A DNA stretch of 39,982 nt, from contig CALWFV010000034.1 of the NCBI GenBank assembly GCA_944377745.1, positions 1 through 39,982 on the forward strand. Reading direction: 5' to 3'. This stretch comes from an uncultured Mediterraneibacter sp. GTDB taxonomy: Bacteria; Bacillota; Clostridia; Lachnospirales; Lachnospiraceae. The notes below the pieces were generated by a model. The model was not told the DNA's origin. It did not search any database and worked only from the letters and a program-made list of their open reading frames with translations. A program made the translations under genes and the position numbers. Positions 26,836-34,470 of this stretch are shown here, one piece after another. How positions within the stretch are numbered: position 1 is the first letter of the stretch; each line of letters opens with the position of its first letter.

Positions 26836-29436
26836 ATGAATAAATGGTATAAGAAGACAACTGCGAAAGCGGTTATTTTTCTGCTGGCAGTGCTCAGCGG
26901 GGCAGCCTTTGTGACAAGTCTGATCGGGGCGCTGACGATTGCCGGGACGGCAAATCCTGCGGAATTGTGGCATATATCGGATAAGGCGTTTGAAGATTCG
27001 GATGATTTCAATGCGCTGGTGGAAAATTCCATGATGAAGGTTTTGCAGCAGCTGCGGCTGGAGAATCTCTTTGAGACGGACGGGGCCTACAATCCGGATA
27101 AAGTGATCGATATCATAGAGTACAGTAAATCGGACAATATCAGCGGGGAGGATGTTTCTGGGGTTGCATATACGCTGGATGAACTGGAGAACTGGAGCGA
27201 GGATTATGCAAACGGCGAAGGGGATATCTACGATGACAATGGTGTGATCGTCTGCGAGAAGCCGGATGGAAGCTATTATTACTATTATCTGAATGATTTC
27301 CTCACGCTGTTTGAGAACGGACGGCTTGTCCTTGAGATGGAGGAGGGGGCTGATCCGGATATGTTCCTGAAGGGGCTGGAAAATGGAGAGTACACCACAT
27401 CGGGCCAGTATGATTTCAGGATACTTGATGATGAAAGCGGAGTACAGTATACGGACTGCTGGAACTTCGGAGAGTCTCTGAAAGAGAAATATCTCACTCA
27501 GAGCGGAAAAAACCTTCTGCAGGTAGTGAACGAAAATCCGCGCCTGAACGGGAAACTGTCGATCATCTATGACGATATCACTTCCGTGCTGAGCAGCCTG
27601 TATTCGGATATTCAGACATACAATAACGGGTGGGACTACCTGGCGGAGGGAAATACAAACCTTACGTATCTGTATATCAACGATGAGACGAAGCGGGTCG
27701 TGACAAACAGAAGTGACTATGAAAATTACGGGGAAGCTGCAGAGAATATTGAGAAGATGAAGACGGCGGATTCCGTGAAATATATGGTGGTATATCCACG
27801 CCTTAAAGACTTTGAGACAAATATGACAATCTCTGAGGCGGGCGAGTGGGATACAGTCAGAGCGTACAGCAACAGGAAAAATTTCAGCAGCACATTTGCA
27901 GTTTCGGTGAATACACAGTTCCCGATCCAGGATCAGTTTTATGAAGGAAAGCTGAACTATGATACCAATGTGCCGTATATCAGAAGTTCGCTGATCATTT
28001 CCATGGTTTCGGCAGTGGTTTTCCTCATAAGTATCGTATGGATCACTATAACTGCCGGGAGGCGGAGTGAAGATGACGAACTCCATCTGACCGCCTTTGA
28101 TCACTGGAAAACAGAGATAGCTGCTGCGCTGGTCATTTTTATATGGATCTTCGGGACATGGTTTTTCTCTATGACATGGAGCGGGATTGACATCGGCGTG
28201 ACCGATGCATTCTCATATGAAACAGCCGGTTTAGAATATCCGGTCTATTATTATTCCGGGCTGCTCACACAGGAATATGACCTTTTTGATTCTGTGGGAC
28301 TGTTCCTGTATGGAACGTTTACATTTCTCTGCTTTTTCTGCGGATATATCAGCCTTATCCGAAGAATAAAGGGTAAGAGACTGTGGCAGGACAGTGTGTG
28401 CCGGGCGGTGATACATTTTGGAACGGAGGTGGCTTCGGAGCGTTCCGCCACTGTAAAGGTAGGAATCCTTCTCGGGATATTTATCATCCTGCAGTGGTTT
28501 GCAATGGCTTCGAACGGCTCTGCACTGTTCGCGGTAGTTCTTCTGGCAGCGGATATTGCGGTAGTCTATGTGGTGCTCAGCAATGTGATCGCAAAGAACA
28601 GACTGAAGAAAGGAATCGAGGAGATTGCCACAGGAAATATGAATTATCAGATCCCGCTGAACGGGCTGAGGGGCGGGAACCGTGATCTTGCGGAGAAGAT
28701 CAATGACATCGGTAGTGGACTTAGCAAAGCGGTTGAGGAAGCCATGAAAAATGAACGGCTGAAGACTGACCTGATCACCAATGTGTCACATGATATCAAG
28801 ACGCCTCTGACATCGATCATCAACTATGTGGATATCCTGAAGCGCTCTAATATCAGTGATTCGAAGATACAGGGGTATCTGGATATTCTGGAGTCGAAGG
28901 CACAGAGGCTCAAGACCCTGACCGAGGACGTGGTGGAAGCGTCAAAGGTCAGCAGCGGGAATATTTCCCTGGAATATATGGATGTGGATCTGAGGGAGCT
29001 GGTTCAGCAGACAGAAGGAGAGATGGCAGAAAAATTTGAGGCCAGGAACCTGACGGTGGTGCTGAACATTCCGGAGGAACCGGCAGTGATCCATGTGGAC
29101 GGCAGAAGGATGTGGCGTGTCCTGGAAAACATCTTTGGGAACGCGGCAAAATATGCTATGCCGGGGACCAGGGTTTACGCGGATATGGTCCTGACAGAGG
29201 ATTCAGTAAATTTCACTCTGAAAAATGTCTCGGAGCAGCAGCTCAATATCACGGCGGATGAACTGACAGAGCGCTTTATTAGGGGGGATCTTTCCAGAAG
29301 TACGGAAGGGAGCGGCCTGGGACTCTCTATCGCAAAAAGCCTGGTGCAGATGCAGGGAGGAGAGTTTGAGCTGTATCTGGACGGGGATCTGTTCCGGGTG
29401 AATATCCGGTTTGCCAGGGCAAAAAATCCTGCTTGA
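26836..29436 (+). CDS. Large multi-pass sensor histidine kinase
   Basis: An 866-residue kinase. A first helix (about 11-37) is followed by an extracytoplasmic region of about 340 residues rich in acidic and aromatic residues, with no family I recognise. Several more helices span about 383-585 (around five), with a second short outside loop between two of them. A HAMP-like segment (about 590-640) leads to the DHp helix with acceptor His652 in NVSHDIKTPLTSIINYVDIL. The ATPase domain has RVLENIFGNAAKYAMPG and GSGLGLSIAKSL. ATG 26836 follows GAAGGGAG. It pairs with the VanR-like regulator. The elaborate membrane part suggests sensing of an envelope state or a lipid-soluble ligand; the cue is unknown. 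Confidence 0.9.
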   Translation: MNKWYKKTTAKAVIFLLAVLSGAAFVTSLIGALTIAGTANPAELWHISDKAFEDSDDFNALVENSMMKVLQQLRLENLFETDGAYNPDKVIDIIEYSKSDNISGEDVSGVAYTLDELENWSEDYANGEGDIYDDNGVIVCEKPDGSYYYYYLNDFLTLFENGRLVLEMEEGADPDMFLKGLENGEYTTSGQYDFRILDDESGVQYTDCWNFGESLKEKYLTQSGKNLLQVVNENPRLNGKLSIIYDDITSVLSSLYSDIQTYNNGWDYLAEGNTNLTYLYINDETKRVVTNRSDYENYGEAAENIEKMKTADSVKYMVVYPRLKDFETNMTISEAGEWDTVRAYSNRKNFSSTFAVSVNTQFPIQDQFYEGKLNYDTNVPYIRSSLIISMVSAVVFLISIVWITITAGRRSEDDELHLTAFDHWKTEIAAALVIFIWIFGTWFFSMTWSGIDIGVTDAFSYETAGLEYPVYYYSGLLTQEYDLFDSVGLFLYGTFTFLCFFCGYISLIRRIKGKRLWQDSVCRAVIHFGTEVASERSATVKVGILLGIFIILQWFAMASNGSALFAVVLLAADIAVVYVVLSNVIAKNRLKKGIEEIATGNMNYQIPLNGLRGGNRDLAEKINDIGSGLSKAVEEAMKNERLKTDLITNVSHDIKTPLTSIINYVDILKRSNISDSKIQGYLDILESKAQRLKTLTEDVVEASKVSSGNISLEYMDVDLRELVQQTEGEMAEKFEARNLTVVLNIPEEPAVIHVDGRRMWRVLENIFGNAAKYAMPGTRVYADMVLTEDSVNFTLKNVSEQQLNITADELTERFIRGDLSRSTEGSGLGLSIAKSLVQMQGGEFELYLDGDLFRVNIRFARAKNPA

Positions 29437-29715
29437 AATTTTAAAATCGATATGTTACCATAGCACTGTATGGAAAGCAGATATCAGGAAAGTTCTCCAT
29501 GCAAATATTTTACGCGGCGGAAAAGCTGCATTATTGATTGAGTTAAAAGCTCAAATTTTATAAGTTGGTTACTTTATAACCGGTGTGCATGATACGCATA
29601 CGCAACTTGTGAAACGGTCAATAAGAGTAGTAAAAGTAAAAATATTTGCTATATAGACTCTAACTCCTATATCTGTTTTATCTAAGGACGAATACAAAAG
29701 TTTTTCAGGATAAGA

Positions 29716-29772
29716 TATAATGAGATGACAGGACACAGGCCGGGTGCGCATGCCCCGGACCTGTGTCCTTTT
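29716..29772 (+). terminator. TATAAT box followed directly by a strong terminator-type hairpin
   Basis: ggacacagg+ccggg (29731-29744) pairs with cccgg+a+cctgtgtcc (29754-29768) with one bulged base, then TTTT. TATAAT at 29716-29721 would start transcription near 29728, right at the stem. The hairpin may end the kinase transcript, or be a 5' stem or attenuator at the head of the polyamine operon. The AT-rich stretch 29437-29715 shows no gene or clear RNA. Confidence 0.6.
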
Positions 29773-29780
29773 GCTTACCA

Positions 29781-29924
29781 GTCTGCACATGCGCCCAGGA
29801 TAATATGAGAAGCCATGCAGACGGGTCTGCAGATGGCGGCTCATATTATCCTGGGCATATGGCGGACGCCATGCAGCGAGAAGAAGCTGCGAAGCAGCGG
29901 AATCGAGCTGCAGCATGTGCAGAC
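29781..29924 (+). repeat. Nested palindromes in the polyamine operon leader
   Basis: Outer arms gtctgcacatgc (29781-29792) and gcatgtgcagac (29913-29924) are perfect 12-bp inverted repeats. Inside, 29793-29809 pairs perfectly with 29840-29856 (17 bp) and the stem continues through gccat/atggc and gcaga/tctgc to a cggg loop, making about 27 bp of pairing. The 28-bp inner palindrome (29812-29839) is repeated in altered form at 29943-29970. The whole lies 75-220 bp before the decarboxylase start. Confidence 0.75.
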
Positions 29925-29998
29925 GGACGGAAGAAGTGAGAAGCCATGCAGGCGAGCCGGCATATGGCGGCACAGGAAATCGGATTTGGAGGTTCACC

Positions 29999-31447
29999 AT
30001 GGATAAATTATCACAGAAAAGAGCGCCCATCTATGAGGCGCTGGAGCGTTTTCGGAGAAACAGGGTCGTCCCCTTTGATGTTCCGGGACATAAGCACGGA
30101 AGGGGGAACCCGGAGCTGGTGCAGCTTCTCGGGGAGCGGTGCGTCAGTATTGACGTCAATTCCATGAAGCCTCTGGACAACCTGTGCCATCCGGTTTCCG
30201 TCATCAAAGAGGCGGAGGAACTGGCGGCGGACGCTTTCGGGGCGGACCATGCGTTCCTCATGGTGGGCGGGACCACGTCGGCGGTCCAGTCCATGATCTT
30301 GTCCTGCTGTAAAAAGAACGATAAGATCATCATGCCGAGAAACGTGCACCGAAGCGCGATCAATGCGCTGGTACTGTGCGGGGCAAAGCCGGTGTATGTA
30401 AACCCGGATGTGGACCAGAGACTGGGAATCTCGCTGGGAATGAAGAGGGACGACGTGGTGAAAGCCATTGAAGAGAACCCGGACGCAGTGGCGGTATTGG
30501 TCAACAACCCCACCTATTATGGTATCTGTTCCGACCTGAGGGCTATCGTGAAGGCGGCTCACGAGAAAGGGATGCTGGTCCTGGCGGACGAGGCCCACGG
30601 GACACACTTTTATTTCGGAAAGGATCTCCCGGTCTCTGCAATGGAAGCGGGAGCGGATATTGCGTCGGTGAGCATGCACAAGTCGGGCGGCAGTCTGACG
30701 CAGAGTTCTTTCCTGCTGACCGGAAAGGGCGTGAATCCGGGATACATCCGCCAGATCATCAACCTGACCCAGACCACGAGCGGGTCCTACCTGCTCCTGT
30801 CAAGCCTTGATATTTCCCGGAGAAATCTGGCGCTCAGGGGCGAGGAGGCTTTCCACGGTGTGACAGCTCTGGCAGAGTACGCCCGGGAGGAAGTCAATCA
30901 GATCGGCGATTATTATGCCTTCGGAAGGGAACTGGTCAATGGGGACAGCGTCTATGACTTTGACCCTACAAAGCTGTCGATCCATACGCTGGATATCGGG
31001 CTTGCGGGAATCGAGGTATATGACATATTAAGGGATGAATACGATATACAGATCGAGTTCGGTGACCTGGGAAATATCCTTGCATATCTGTCCATCGGCG
31101 ACCGGATCCGGGAGGTAGAGCGTCTTGTAACAGCGCTTGCCGACTTGAAGCGGAGATATAAGAAGGATAAGGCGGGAATGCTCAGCCAGGAATATATTTC
31201 TCCGAAAGTGGTCATGACGCCGCAGGACTCGTTCTATGCGGAGAAAGAGTCGCTGCCTCTTGAGGAGACTGCGGGCAGGATCTGCAGCGAGTTCGTCATG
31301 TGCTACCCGCCGGGGATTCCGGTGCTTGCCCCGGGGGAGGAAGTGACGGATGAGATCATCAACTATATTGTATACGCGAAGGAGAAAGGCTGTTCCATGA
31401 CCGGACCTGAGGATGAAAGGATCGAGCGGCTTAATGTACTGATATAA
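29999..31447 (+). CDS. speA: Orn/Lys/Arg decarboxylase, short SpeA/YaaO type
   Basis: A 482-residue fold-type-I PLP decarboxylase. The PLP lysine is Lys228 in SVSMHKSGGSLTQSS. Other family marks are FDVPGHKHGRGN near the start, VGGTTSAVQSMI and LADEAHGTHFYF (Asp binding the pyridine ring, then His). It lacks the N-terminal wing domain of the large enterobacterial enzymes, as in Bacillus SpeA/YaaO. The agmatinase gene in the same operon points to arginine as substrate, giving agmatine; lysine or ornithine cannot be ruled out by sequence. ATG 29999 follows TTGGAGG; an upstream GTG in frame (29915) would translate the palindromic leader and is rejected. First gene of the polyamine operon, 19 bp before speE. 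Confidence 0.9.
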   Translation: MDKLSQKRAPIYEALERFRRNRVVPFDVPGHKHGRGNPELVQLLGERCVSIDVNSMKPLDNLCHPVSVIKEAEELAADAFGADHAFLMVGGTTSAVQSMILSCCKKNDKIIMPRNVHRSAINALVLCGAKPVYVNPDVDQRLGISLGMKRDDVVKAIEENPDAVAVLVNNPTYYGICSDLRAIVKAAHEKGMLVLADEAHGTHFYFGKDLPVSAMEAGADIASVSMHKSGGSLTQSSFLLTGKGVNPGYIRQIINLTQTTSGSYLLLSSLDISRRNLALRGEEAFHGVTALAEYAREEVNQIGDYYAFGRELVNGDSVYDFDPTKLSIHTLDIGLAGIEVYDILRDEYDIQIEFGDLGNILAYLSIGDRIREVERLVTALADLKRRYKKDKAGMLSQEYISPKVVMTPQDSFYAEKESLPLEETAGRICSEFVMCYPPGIPVLAPGEEVTDEIINYIVYAKEKGCSMTGPEDERIERLNVLI

Positions 31448-31466: not shown

Positions 31467-32333
31467 ATGGAAATGTGGTTTTCCGACATGCACACAGACG
31501 GCGTAAAGCTGTCCATCAAGATTGAGGAACAGCTTTTCAGCGCACAGAGTGAAGTCCAGCGGATCGACGTCCTTGAGTCAAAGGACTTCGGGAAGATACT
31601 CGTGGTGGATGGGGACCTGATGCTGACAGAGAGGGACGAATTTATTTACCATGAGATGATCACGCATGTGCCTATGGCGGTGCATCCTGATGTGAAGGAA
31701 GTCCTGGTAGTCGGAGGGGGAGACGGAGGCGTTGTCCGGGAACTGATCAAGTACGATACCATTGAAAAGATTGATGTGGTGGAGCCGGATCCGCTGCTGG
31801 TGGAGGTGTGCAGGAAGTATATCCCGGAGATAGCAGGGAGCCTGAACGATGAGCGGGTGACGATCTACCATGAAGACGGGCTGAGGTTTATCCGTTCCAA
31901 GGGTGATGCCTACGACCTGATCATCATTGACTCCCCGAATCCGTTCGGCGCAGGGGAGGGGCTTTTTACGAAGGAATTCTACGGGAACTGCTATAATGCG
32001 CTCCACGAGGACGGCGTCATGATCAACCAGAATGAGAGCCCTTTTTATACGGAAGAAGCGTTCCAGTGCCAGCGGATGCACCGGAGGATCCTGGAGACAT
32101 TCCCTATCTGCCGGGTATACCAGGCGCATATCCCGTCCTACCCGTCGGGGCACTGGCTCTTTGGGTTTGCGTCGAAGAAATACCATCCTCTGGATGACCT
32201 GGATAAAGTCGGCTGGAAACTGAAGGGGATCCATACGAAATATTACGAGCCGAGGCTGCACGCAGGGGTGTTTGCCCTGCCTGCCTATGTGGAAGAGCTT
32301 CTGGAGGATGTGGAAAAGAAGGATGGAAGATAG
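31467..32333 (+). CDS. speE: Spermidine synthase (SpeE) homologue
   Basis: A 288-residue aminopropyltransferase-fold protein. It has the N-terminal beta domain and a Rossmann domain with VVGGGDGGVVREL (nucleoside binding), the LTERDEFIYHEM motif and YPSGHWLFGFASK near the end. Canonical enzymes have D-S-x-D-P at the catalytic loop. Here it is Asp155-Ser-Pro-Asn158-Pro (IIIDSPNPFGAGEGLF), so the second Asp, which helps hold the amine acceptor in characterised enzymes, is Asn. No AdoMet decarboxylase (speD) gene is in view to supply its usual donor. The operon also encodes the carboxyspermidine route, which makes spermidine without SpeE. A changed acceptor or donor is therefore possible. ATG 31467 follows a GAGGGTGG stretch; the stop overlaps or closely abuts the agmatinase start. 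Confidence 0.85.
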   Translation: MEMWFSDMHTDGVKLSIKIEEQLFSAQSEVQRIDVLESKDFGKILVVDGDLMLTERDEFIYHEMITHVPMAVHPDVKEVLVVGGGDGGVVRELIKYDTIEKIDVVEPDPLLVEVCRKYIPEIAGSLNDERVTIYHEDGLRFIRSKGDAYDLIIIDSPNPFGAGEGLFTKEFYGNCYNALHEDGVMINQNESPFYTEEAFQCQRMHRRILETFPICRVYQAHIPSYPSGHWLFGFASKKYHPLDDLDKVGWKLKGIHTKYYEPRLHAGVFALPAYVEELLEDVEKKDGR

Positions 32334-32337
32334 AGAA

Positions 32338-33204
32338 ATGTGGAAAAATGTTGTGGATTATATCGGCTGTGACGCAGAGTATGGGGAGGCAGATGTGGTA
32401 CTGTTCGGGGCGCCTTTTGATTCCACCACCTCGTTCCGCCCGGGAACCCGTTTTGCGGGACAGGCGATCCGAAATGATTCCTACGGGCTGGAGACCTACA
32501 GCCCGTATCAGGACATGGAACTGACGGAAGGTACTGTGTACGACTGCGGGGATCTGGACCTGGCGATAGGGGATTCCGGCAAAGTCCTGGAACAGATCAG
32601 GGAGACGGCGGAAAAGATATTCTGTGACGGGAAAATACCTTTTATGATCGGAGGGGAGCATCTGGTGACGCTGGGGGCGGTCCGCGCTGCAGCAAAAAGA
32701 TACCCGGACCTACATATCATCCATTTTGATGCCCATACGGATCTGAGGACAGATTACCTGGGGGTGGAGCTGTCCCATGCCTGTGTCATAAGGAGATGCT
32801 GGGAACTGCTCGGCGATGGGCGGATACACCAGCTTGGGATCCGGTCGGGAGAAAGATATGAATTTGACTGGGCGAGGAGCGGGCACACGGATTTTCATCC
32901 CTTTGTACTGGATGACCTGGAGGCGGTCCTGGAGAGTGTGGGAGACGCGCCGGTATATTTTACAGTGGACCTGGATGTGATGGATCCGTCCGTTTTTCCC
33001 GGGACGGGGACGCCGGAGCCCGGGGGCGTGGATTTCCTGACGCTCATGAGAGCCGTGACGAAGGTGTGCCGGGCTGCCCGCCTTGTGGGATGCGACGTGA
33101 ACGAGCTGTGCCCGCCCTGCGATCCGACCGGAGCCTCCACGGCTGCAGCGTGCAAGGTCATCCGGGAGATGCTGATCGCTATCGTGAACAAGAAAGGCAG
33201 ATAA
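32338..33204 (+). CDS. speB: Agmatinase (ureohydrolase family)
   Basis: A 288-residue ureohydrolase that would convert agmatine to putrescine and urea with two Mn ions. All metal ligands are visible: His in GGEHLVTLG, the Asp-His-Asp set in HFDAHTDLR, and the Asp pair in TVDLDVMDPS. FGAPFDSTTSFRPGTRFA and PEPGGVDFLT are typical of the agmatinase branch, not arginase. Two starts are possible: ATG 32338, used here (4 nt after speE), or ATG 32323, which would overlap speE by 11 nt; neither has a strong ribosome site, so translational coupling is likely. It takes agmatine from the upstream decarboxylase; it could also act on aminopropylagmatine if SpeE makes that. Confidence 0.9.
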   Translation: MWKNVVDYIGCDAEYGEADVVLFGAPFDSTTSFRPGTRFAGQAIRNDSYGLETYSPYQDMELTEGTVYDCGDLDLAIGDSGKVLEQIRETAEKIFCDGKIPFMIGGEHLVTLGAVRAAAKRYPDLHIIHFDAHTDLRTDYLGVELSHACVIRRCWELLGDGRIHQLGIRSGERYEFDWARSGHTDFHPFVLDDLEAVLESVGDAPVYFTVDLDVMDPSVFPGTGTPEPGGVDFLTLMRAVTKVCRAARLVGCDVNELCPPCDPTGASTAAACKVIREMLIAIVNKKGR

Positions 33205-33267
33205 ACTGGATAAGTGTTACAATATGAACAGCCAGATACATCAGAGAAACGAAAGGAGAAGATGGAA

Positions 33268-34470
33268 ATGGGAAAGATCATGATCATTGGATGCGGAGGA
33301 GTAGGAAGCGTGGCAGTGCAGAAATGCTGCCAGAACAGCGACGCTTTTTCTGAGGTGGTGATCGCCAGCAGGACAGTGTCAAAGTGCGACGCCCTGAAAG
33401 CAAAGCTGGAAGGAAAGACAAAGACGAAGATCAAGACCGTCCAGGTGGACGCGGACGACACGGCGATCCTGACAGCGCTGATCCGCCAGGAGAAACCGGA
33501 TGTGGTGCTGAACCTTGCGCTGCCGTATCAGGATCTCCTTATCATGGAGTGCTGCCTGGCGGCAGGCGTGCATTACATTGACACGGCAAATTATGAGCCG
33601 GAGGATACAGCGAAATTCGAGTATAAATGGCAGTGGGAGTACAGGGAGCGTTTTGAGAAGGCTGGGCTGACCGCTCTGCTCGGAAGCGGGTTCGACCCGG
33701 GGGTGACCGGCGTGTTTTCCGCATATGCCCTGAAGCACTATTTCGACGAGATCAACTATATTGATATCCTGGACTGCAACGCAGGGGATAACGGGTATCC
33801 CTTTGCTACAAACTTCAACCCGGAGATCAATATCCGCGAGGTGTCTGCAAACGGTTCCTACTGGGAGAACGGGCACTGGGTAGAGACGAAGCCGATGGAG
33901 ATCAAGCGCACATACAACTTCCCGGAGATAGGGAAGAAGGATATGTACCTGCTGCACCATGAGGAACTTGAGTCCCTGGCAGTCAATATCCCGGGCATCA
34001 AGAGGATCCGCTTCTTCATGACTTTCAGCGAGAGTTATCTGACCCACCTGAAATGCCTTGAGGACGTGGGGATGACGTCCATTGAACCGGTCATGTACAA
34101 CGGGCAGGAGATCATTCCGCTGCAGTTCTTAAAGACACTCCTTCCGGATCCGGCTTCACTGGGAGCGAGGACAAAGGGAAAGACAAACATCGGCTGCATT
34201 TTCATCGGAAAGAAGGATGGAAAAGAGAAAAAGCTGTACATCTATAACGTGTGCGACCACCAGGAATGCTACAAAGAGGTGGAATCCCAGGCTGTCGCCT
34301 ATACAACCGGAGTTCCGGCGATGATCGGCGCCATGCTGGTGATGAACGGGACGTGGAGACGCCCGGGCGTGTTCAATGTGGAAGAGTTTGATCCGGATCC
34401 GTTCATGGACGCCCTGAATAAGTGGGGGCTGCCGTGGAAGATTAGTGAGGATCCGGAGCTGGTGGATTAG
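33268..34470 (+). CDS. Carboxyspermidine dehydrogenase (saccharopine dehydrogenase family)
   Basis: A 400-residue NAD(P)-dependent enzyme. The N-terminal Rossmann motif is IMIIGCGGVGSVAVQKC. Further family segments are VLNLALPYQDLLIMECCLAAGVHYIDTANYEPED and GFDPGVTGVFSAYALKHYF, as in the CASDH branch, not lysine-pathway saccharopine dehydrogenases. It would condense putrescine with aspartate semialdehyde and reduce the imine to carboxyspermidine. ATG 33268 is 9 nt after AAAGGAG (33252-33258); ATG 33262 is too close to it. The decarboxylase for its product is the next gene, 214 bp on, beyond a giant palindrome. Confidence 0.88.
   Translation: MGKIMIIGCGGVGSVAVQKCCQNSDAFSEVVIASRTVSKCDALKAKLEGKTKTKIKTVQVDADDTAILTALIRQEKPDVVLNLALPYQDLLIMECCLAAGVHYIDTANYEPEDTAKFEYKWQWEYRERFEKAGLTALLGSGFDPGVTGVFSAYALKHYFDEINYIDILDCNAGDNGYPFATNFNPEINIREVSANGSYWENGHWVETKPMEIKRTYNFPEIGKKDMYLLHHEELESLAVNIPGIKRIRFFMTFSESYLTHLKCLEDVGMTSIEPVMYNGQEIIPLQFLKTLLPDPASLGARTKGKTNIGCIFIGKKDGKEKKLYIYNVCDHQECYKEVESQAVAYTTGVPAMIGAMLVMNGTWRRPGVFNVEEFDPDPFMDALNKWGLPWKISEDPELVD

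Follow-up and report, generated by a model that had tools for sequence, protein, structure and literature searches.

The large nested palindrome in front of the speA-type gene of an uncultured Mediterraneibacter sp. is, with high probability, a copy of a dispersed repeat that probably lies passive in the 5' untranslated region (UTR) of this gene, and the polyamine element of the locus is most likely a conserved leader RNA upstream of it. The locus was studied within a window, by which we mean the whole stretch of DNA analysed, 39,982 nucleotides in length, where the palindrome and the parts of the repeat are located as follows:

29778..29936, plus strand: inserted copy of the dispersed repeat, with the ends CCAGTCTGC...GCAGACGGACGG and approximate outer limits
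29781..29792, plus strand: 5' arm of the outer helix P1 of the repeat, pairing with 29913..29924
29913..29924, plus strand: 3' arm of P1, 12 nt, 100% complementary to the 5' arm in an inverted-repeat search
29793..29856, plus strand: P2, a long stem specific to this copy, its tip of the conserved type (GCAGAC..GTCTGC), here without a U-tract
29858..29873, plus strand: P3 hairpin, ATGGC-GGAC-GCCAT
29874..29910, plus strand: P4 hairpin, CAGCGAGAAGAAGCTGCGAAGCAGCGGAATCGAGCTG
29937..29974, plus strand: fragment like the P2 tip and the 3' side of P2 (the recurring 28-bp unit), 84% over 38 nt

The initial annotation had described 29716..29998 as a nested palindromic leader of the polyamine operon, and its account of the structure is well founded. 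The outer arms of 12 nt are fully complementary, the inner inverted repeat (29788-29816 with 29833-29861) is 86% complementary over 29 nt, and the RNA from 29728 to 30001, the span for which it had proposed a fold, reaches -145.9 kcal/mol, whereas shuffles average -95.4 (z -10.7; none of 200 shuffles equalled it). The 28-bp unit that it saw recurring was found in both places, as the core of a 38-nt repeat of 84% identity (29806-29843 and 29937-29974), the second member of which is a piece of the same repeat element as the palindrome. The short words singled out there recur as well: of the four occurrences of GCCATGCAG in the window (0.38 expected; none of 100 shuffles reached four), three lie in this stretch, and CATATGGCGG has two exact occurrences, both inside the stretch. 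The terminator-type hairpin placed ahead of the nest is also present, with arms at 29730-29747 and 29752-29769 and TTTT at 29769-29772. The TATAAT at 29716-29721 exists too, but we have rejected it as a conserved promoter, because the closest related leaders read TATAACG at that place. An Rfam scan of the whole window returned no family at its gathering score, and at E<=10 the region 29400-30010 gave four weak matches, which belong to two microRNA families and one lncRNA family; a mir-7131-like hairpin was rejected at 33.3 and 32.5 bits against a gathering score of 74.

The palindrome belongs to a structured intergenic repeat family whose full copies, some 145-150 nt long, fold as a four-way junction. 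A covariance model of the repeat, R2, matches 36 places on 24 contigs of the own genome; since R2 was trained on copies from the searched genomes, matches to those copies arise by construction, including that of the window copy (29781-29922, 143.7 bits, E 5e-37), which was in the training set. BLASTN with 29700-30010 against the own genome hit 17 places, i.e. the query itself, its own reverse strand and 15 others, all of the latter within 29851-29930, the P3/P4 module. Among 40 relatives, BLASTN matches were found in 18 of the 24 congeners and in none of the 16 genomes of other genera; some congener matches fall in the leader portion of the query, and all 18 congeners also match the P3/P4 module. 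The wide R2 searches scored eight candidates per genome, so that their counts are lower bounds: at least 83 of 392 genomes and at least 47 of 173 genera in the order carry matches, and in a phylum sample of 398 genomes these came from at least the own genome and four genomes of the same family only. As the phylum sample is nearly free of matches, R2 does not fire on just any long hairpin. A palindromic mobile repeat had been one of the options in the initial annotation, which had also fixed in advance that many copies in the genome would speak against a leader role; many copies were found, and the repeat option is the one that these searches bear out. Rfam holds no match for the repeat family, nor does the literature that we searched, mostly other than subscription papers, contain a description of it.

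The copies that we read share one architecture, in which the outer P1 encloses a long P2 followed by the hairpins P3 and P4. P2 has about 26 pairs and a sequence private to each copy, with a tip conserved in type (GCAAGC..GCTTGC type), P3 is ATGGC-GGAC-GCCAT with variants, and P4 is CAGCGAGAAGAAGC...GCGGAATCGAGCTG. When 14 full-length copies are aligned, double-sided changes with pairing kept are seen in 34 of the 49 pairs, and 93.0% of the cells are paired against 73.7% in shuffles, none of 500 shuffles reaching any of the five measures; slid registers paired 32-45% of the cells, a control that leans towards the structure because this was derived from the same sequences. The most variable part is P2, where all 28 pairs show a double-sided change in some copy, and there is hardly any variation in P3 and in the outer portion of P4. 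For counts over copies, 60 distinct ones were used out of 78 R2 matches after short and duplicate matches had been dropped. The P3 and P4 motifs are both recognisable in 25 of 30 own-genome, 4 of 4 congener and 18 of 26 other-genus copies; one copy (L208) has neither. Since 8 of the 26 other-genus copies do not show both motifs, some of these matches may be other hairpin elements. Similar inserts of the form GATGCATTGAGC..TTGGCGAG..TCGAGCCTAGTGCGAAAG, which may be a nested element, occur in the P4 region of three own-genome copies (L166, L173 and L176). Tandem arrays with a period of about 130 or 75 nt occur at G000:C19:8954-9357 (L155, L162 and L163) and at G016:C9:53308-53583, the C19 array comprising three copies about 130 nt apart.

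Copies tend to sit immediately 3' of a co-directional gene: the distance from the stop codon of this upstream gene to the left end is 16 nt or less in 22 of 36 copies, compared with 4 of 25 right ends that come equally close to the stop codon of a gene on the opposite strand (Fisher p 0.0006); the 16-nt cut-off was picked after the distances were known, genes are mechanically called open reading frames (ORFs), the near-identical sites L197 and L205 were both counted, and tandem copies were kept. By eye, several other copies lie directly 3' of T-runs, as the window copy does. The genes beside the copies are unrelated to one another, presumably including ilvN-like and accB/fabZ-like ones (by eye, from their proteins). 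In many copies P2 is a strong stem with a U-rich 3' arm, as in intrinsic terminators: a T-run of five or more occurs in the 3' arm of 23 of the 60 copies and in the 5' arm of two, compared with a mean of 6.3 and a maximum of 14 copies when the 3' arms were shuffled 500 times, and 37 of the 60 have no T-run of five in this arm. The pattern is as would be expected of bidirectional intrinsic terminators. We have kept the strand asymmetry of P2 as evidence for a terminator only and rejected it as evidence for a function of the RNA, on which it is uninformative because a near-perfect palindrome has equal bias on both strands. Unlike in intrinsic terminators, P2 is embedded in a conserved multi-hairpin unit, and in the window copy its 3' arm has at most four T in eight positions and a longest T-run of two, too few for the U-tract of an intrinsic terminator. 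A terminator role would also leave the conservation of P3 and P4 unexplained, as both lie downstream of P2 and would often be untranscribed.

Orthologous sites (speA and ilvN-type) were examined in 30 of the 58 genomes of the genus. At the 3' end of a gene that we take, from its protein, to be ilvN-type, R2 recovers an intact copy in 4 of 30 congeners, at 115.9 to 150.1 bits, and nothing in 25, and one locus (L251) shows a weak R2 match on the opposite strand (23.5 bits); the end of the protein is identical with or without the repeat, and some of the empty sites are short (L253, L259). In three species with the repeat at this site, pairwise comparison of P2 gave 5, 6 and 4 doubly compensated pair changes, each with one one-sided change besides; the fourth species was omitted, its stem being of another length. 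These changes are a case of strong maintenance of pairing, which both selection and template switching between the arms fit. Transversions account for 12 of the 15 compensated changes; these cannot go by way of a G-U intermediate, and template switching between palindrome arms would produce them too. Another repeat, unrelated to the first (GTGCGGCTTTGCGAATGGCGC type, on either strand), was observed at ilvN-type 3' ends (L239, L250-L252) and in two speA leaders (L052, L047).

The compensated P2 changes in three species, the left ends abutting co-directional stops and the U-tracts of P2 could all be accounted for if the repeat were a functional RNA module selected at gene ends, as a terminator or a stabiliser of 3' ends, with little or no mobility and with old copies at shared sites. 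We regard this as a sizeable possibility but not the probable one, as the patchy presence at the ilvN-type site (4 of 30), the tandem array on C19 and the wide dispersal suggest spread, and the 12 transversions among the 15 compensated changes are also possible via template switching. Our preferred reading is that the family would spread as a non-autonomous element, with gene ends and transcription gaps as its landing sites, and that P2, with its A-rich 5' arm and U-rich 3' arm, may often act as a bidirectional intrinsic terminator. The limits on this reading of spread are that no clean target duplication was established and that the second fragment blurs the right end of the window copy. As to the word 'mobile' in the initial annotation, presence does differ between species at one orthologous site, but a search for Y1 transposases yielded no mobilising enzyme.

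Dispersed palindromic repeats of bacteria, such as REP/BIME, ERIC, RUP and BOX, are extragenic and often located at gene ends. The present family differs from them in its sequence, its larger four-way junction and its long copy-private stem. It nevertheless resembles REP sequences, and it is short, palindromic, extragenic and often directly 3' of T-runs or stops (by eye), which would suit a REP/RAYT- or IS200/IS605-type element mobilised through its hairpins by a Y1 (HUH) transposase. This origin is unlikely in our view: the four Y1 genes of the own genome lie on C43 (two), C46 and C53, the R2 matches lie on 24 other contigs, and a four-way junction of about 145 nt exceeds the size of REP units. 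A REP element with a linked Y1 transposase was rejected, as no contig of the own genome has both.

The conserved part of the speA leader lies upstream of the palindrome. The features of this region and of the genes that follow are:

29433..29461, plus strand: conserved predicted sigma-70-type promoter (TTGAAA 29433-29438, 17-nt spacer, TACCAT 29456-29461)
29468..29695, plus strand: conserved leader RNA of the polyamine operon, its closing helix P1 pairing GCAGATAT at 29477-29484 with ATATCTG at 29669-29675
29530..29660, plus strand: domain II of the leader RNA (model R1), 130 nt; an R1 match, the window copy being in the training set
29730..29772, plus strand: intrinsic-terminator-type hairpin, candidate attenuator (18-nt arms, 83% complementary)
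29999..31447, plus strand: speA-type gene (Orn/Lys/Arg decarboxylase family), first in the operon; best NCBIfam match PRK15029, 82.5 bits, far below cut-off
31467..34470, plus strand: speE, agmatinase and carboxynorspermidine synthase-type genes; TIGR00417 and TIGR01230 above cut-off, NF043000 at 418 bits against a cut-off of 800

The unit at 29468-29772 thus consists of an RNA of about 200 nt and then a terminator, with the promoter just 5' of it. In 27 aligned leaders, including that of the window, a TTG-type -35 box and a TACNAT-type -10 box are seen by eye in nearly all, L055 reading TAACAT. The terminator hairpin folds at -32.6 kcal/mol, and a hairpin with a T-run stands at the same place in related leaders (by eye). 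The leader RNA is present in 42 of the 58 genomes of the genus (fold z -4.6), and a full-length speA orthologue of at least 88% identity in 33, the own genome included. An exact 20-mer of the leader RNA occurs in 28 of 30 speA loci, and an exact 45-mer was found on 15 named contigs, eight of them from Mediterraneibacter (e.g. M. glycyrrhizinilyticus) and others from, among further carriers, Claveliimonas monacensis and Blautia caecimuris. For P1 of the leader RNA, the pairing energy of its two strands is -14 kcal/mol or lower in 26 of 28 leaders; L040, with an internal deletion, and L043, whose 5' end is missing, allowed no judgement. Downstream helices that could form in place of this P1 are present in the 28 leaders, and a common antiterminator helix, which was sought in all of them, was not found; as the alternative helices share no common place, we claim no switch mechanism. 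Three genomes (G005, G047 and G054; L092, L093 and L095) have contig ends within the leader RNA, a hint that each contains at least two copies of it. In the literature searched, which left aside most subscription papers, there was no description of a leader RNA of the window type.

Domain II reaches far beyond the genus. Within the order, R1 matches 53 of 392 genomes, from 26 of 173 genera, and in the phylum sample of 398 it matches 23 further genomes outside the order. In an alignment of 61 matches (56 distinct), fitted to the R1 model, 15 of 35 pairs show double-sided changes and 95.3% of the cells are paired, and none of 500 shuffles reached any of the measures. The first 24 sequences, all close to one another, had shown three pairs with double-sided changes (one of 500 shuffles as high) and a covariation score not above that of shuffles (455 of 500 as high), and the covariation support for domain II therefore comes from the wider set. 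A known RNA accompanies domain II in many of these leaders: the core of SpF59/ldcC RNA (RF02440) lies 14-36 nt 5' of it in 31 of the 39 other-genus loci scanned with Rfam, i.e. in 14 of 20 loci within the order, the scan covering 20 of the in-order R1 loci, and in 17 of 19 outside it. The leader in the window has no RF02440 match at the gathering score of 37.2 bits or, in 29400-30010, at E<=10; the core has no match in the own genome, is found in 3 of the 58 genomes of the genus, and in three divergent congeners stands directly before domain II. The window leader shares with the ldcC RNA domain II and a position upstream of the same kinds of gene, and differs from it in having no core; the Rfam model, of 54 positions, does not include domain II. 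What the window leader carries at 29530-29660 is thus the domain known from RF02440-bearing leaders, a companion outside the Rfam definition, and we regard the window leader RNA, judging by its sequence, as a relative of the ldcC RNA in a variant without the core.

The genes behind domain II are largely those of polyamine metabolism. Among 52 loci within the order (48 R1 matches and four congeners), R1 precedes a SpeA-type gene in 28, a SpeD gene in 19, a carboxynorspermidine synthase-type gene in one and others in four, as assigned by motif; these loci represent 52 of the 61 aligned matches, the nine left out being copies from the genus (four on the speA side, four on the potA side, and L080), and the matches in G061, G289 and G348 stood outside the locus analysis. 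Outside the order, all 19 loci examined lie before polyamine genes (6 SpeA, 6 SpeD and 7 carboxynorspermidine synthase type, by eye), the other four of the 23 genomes having yielded no locus. The SpeD representative scores above its NCBIfam cut-off, and that of carboxynorspermidine synthase scores below with a nearly full-length match. In 36 of the 52 loci a terminator-like site separates domain II from the ORF, compared with a mean of 2.75 and a maximum of 6 in 20 mononucleotide shuffles. In four species (L074, L076, L077 and L081) the leader RNA and terminator precede potA; the best speA match in these genomes is only a distant paralogue of 30-33% identity, the PotA of L076 scores above the TIGR01187 cut-off, and the genome from which L074 comes (G015) is 84% complete. 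At L080 (G012), an IS200-type transposase gene follows the leader RNA, and speA is found towards the end of C4, a different contig, without a leader-RNA match among those retrieved. No recognised polyamine gene follows R1 at L140, L145 and L152, the first of which has two tandem matches before an acetyltransferase-like gene (by eye).

Conservation, covarying structure, a place ahead of polyamine genes and an intervening terminator are features looked for in a polyamine riboswitch, and the leader RNA at 29468-29772, which has them, is most likely the polyamine-responsive element of this locus and a candidate riboswitch. From the leader RNA, the terminator and the gene context we infer a polyamine-responsive attenuator. 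A spermidine riboswitch is reported to be a variant of SAM-I that controls ldcC, speE, speB and other polyamine genes via a transcription terminator (PMC10853860). The present RNA is like it in leading polyamine genes and in having a transcription terminator, and unlike it in that no match to a SAM-I fold was obtained, as no Rfam family reaches its gathering score in the window and no SAM family is among the four leader matches at E<=10. With somewhat less than even confidence, we suggest that the leader RNA represents an undescribed class of polyamine riboswitch, in which the sensor would be domain II, outside the 54-nt ldcC model, would work without the ldcC core in the genus of the window and in some other genera, and would attenuate the transcription of speA, speD, carboxynorspermidine synthase or potA genes. 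Its own promoter and a terminator at which transcription could end (29772) would also suit a stand-alone small RNA whose position beside polyamine genes would be mere synteny; Rfam files SpF59, the family of its relatives, as such a small RNA. This is rather improbable, because the RNA precedes four different kinds of polyamine gene (those for SpeA, SpeD, carboxynorspermidine synthase and PotA) across the phylum, for which shared synteny is no explanation.

Against this background, the palindrome is a local addition between the leader terminator and the ribosome-binding site of speA, because 26 of 28 speA leaders are without a copy. Of 30 speA loci fetched, 28 have the conserved leader, and L045 and L057 have short contig ends upstream; R2 found an intact copy in the window only, a remnant in G003 (36.9 bits), nothing in the 26 leaders just mentioned, and at the contig end of L045 a partial match of 12.9 bits (E 0.11). 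A palindrome conserved as part of the polyamine leader was rejected on this count, which also leaves the polyamine-sensing switch proposed in the initial annotation unsupported for the palindrome: although the palindrome is located in the 5' UTR between terminator and ribosome-binding site and its fold is very stable, it is very improbable that it is itself such a switch or an RNase III-processed leader regulating speA, as most speA leaders lack it, its copies adjoin unrelated genes, and what speA leaders conserve is the upstream RNA. The dispersed-repeat reading would have the window copy landing between the attenuator-type terminator and the speA ribosome-binding site, where it is most likely a passive insert in the 5' UTR and not a sensor, as its P2 has no U-tract.

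One locus thus yields two structured elements absent from Rfam. The repeat family offers a clean system for studying how palindromic stems change and yet stay paired, by selection or by template switching, and it also raises the question whether terminators travel around genomes. The leader RNA makes polyamine sensing testable, as domain II stands before biosynthesis genes in some species and before an importer gene in others, and natural leader variants with and without the ldcC core are available for comparison.
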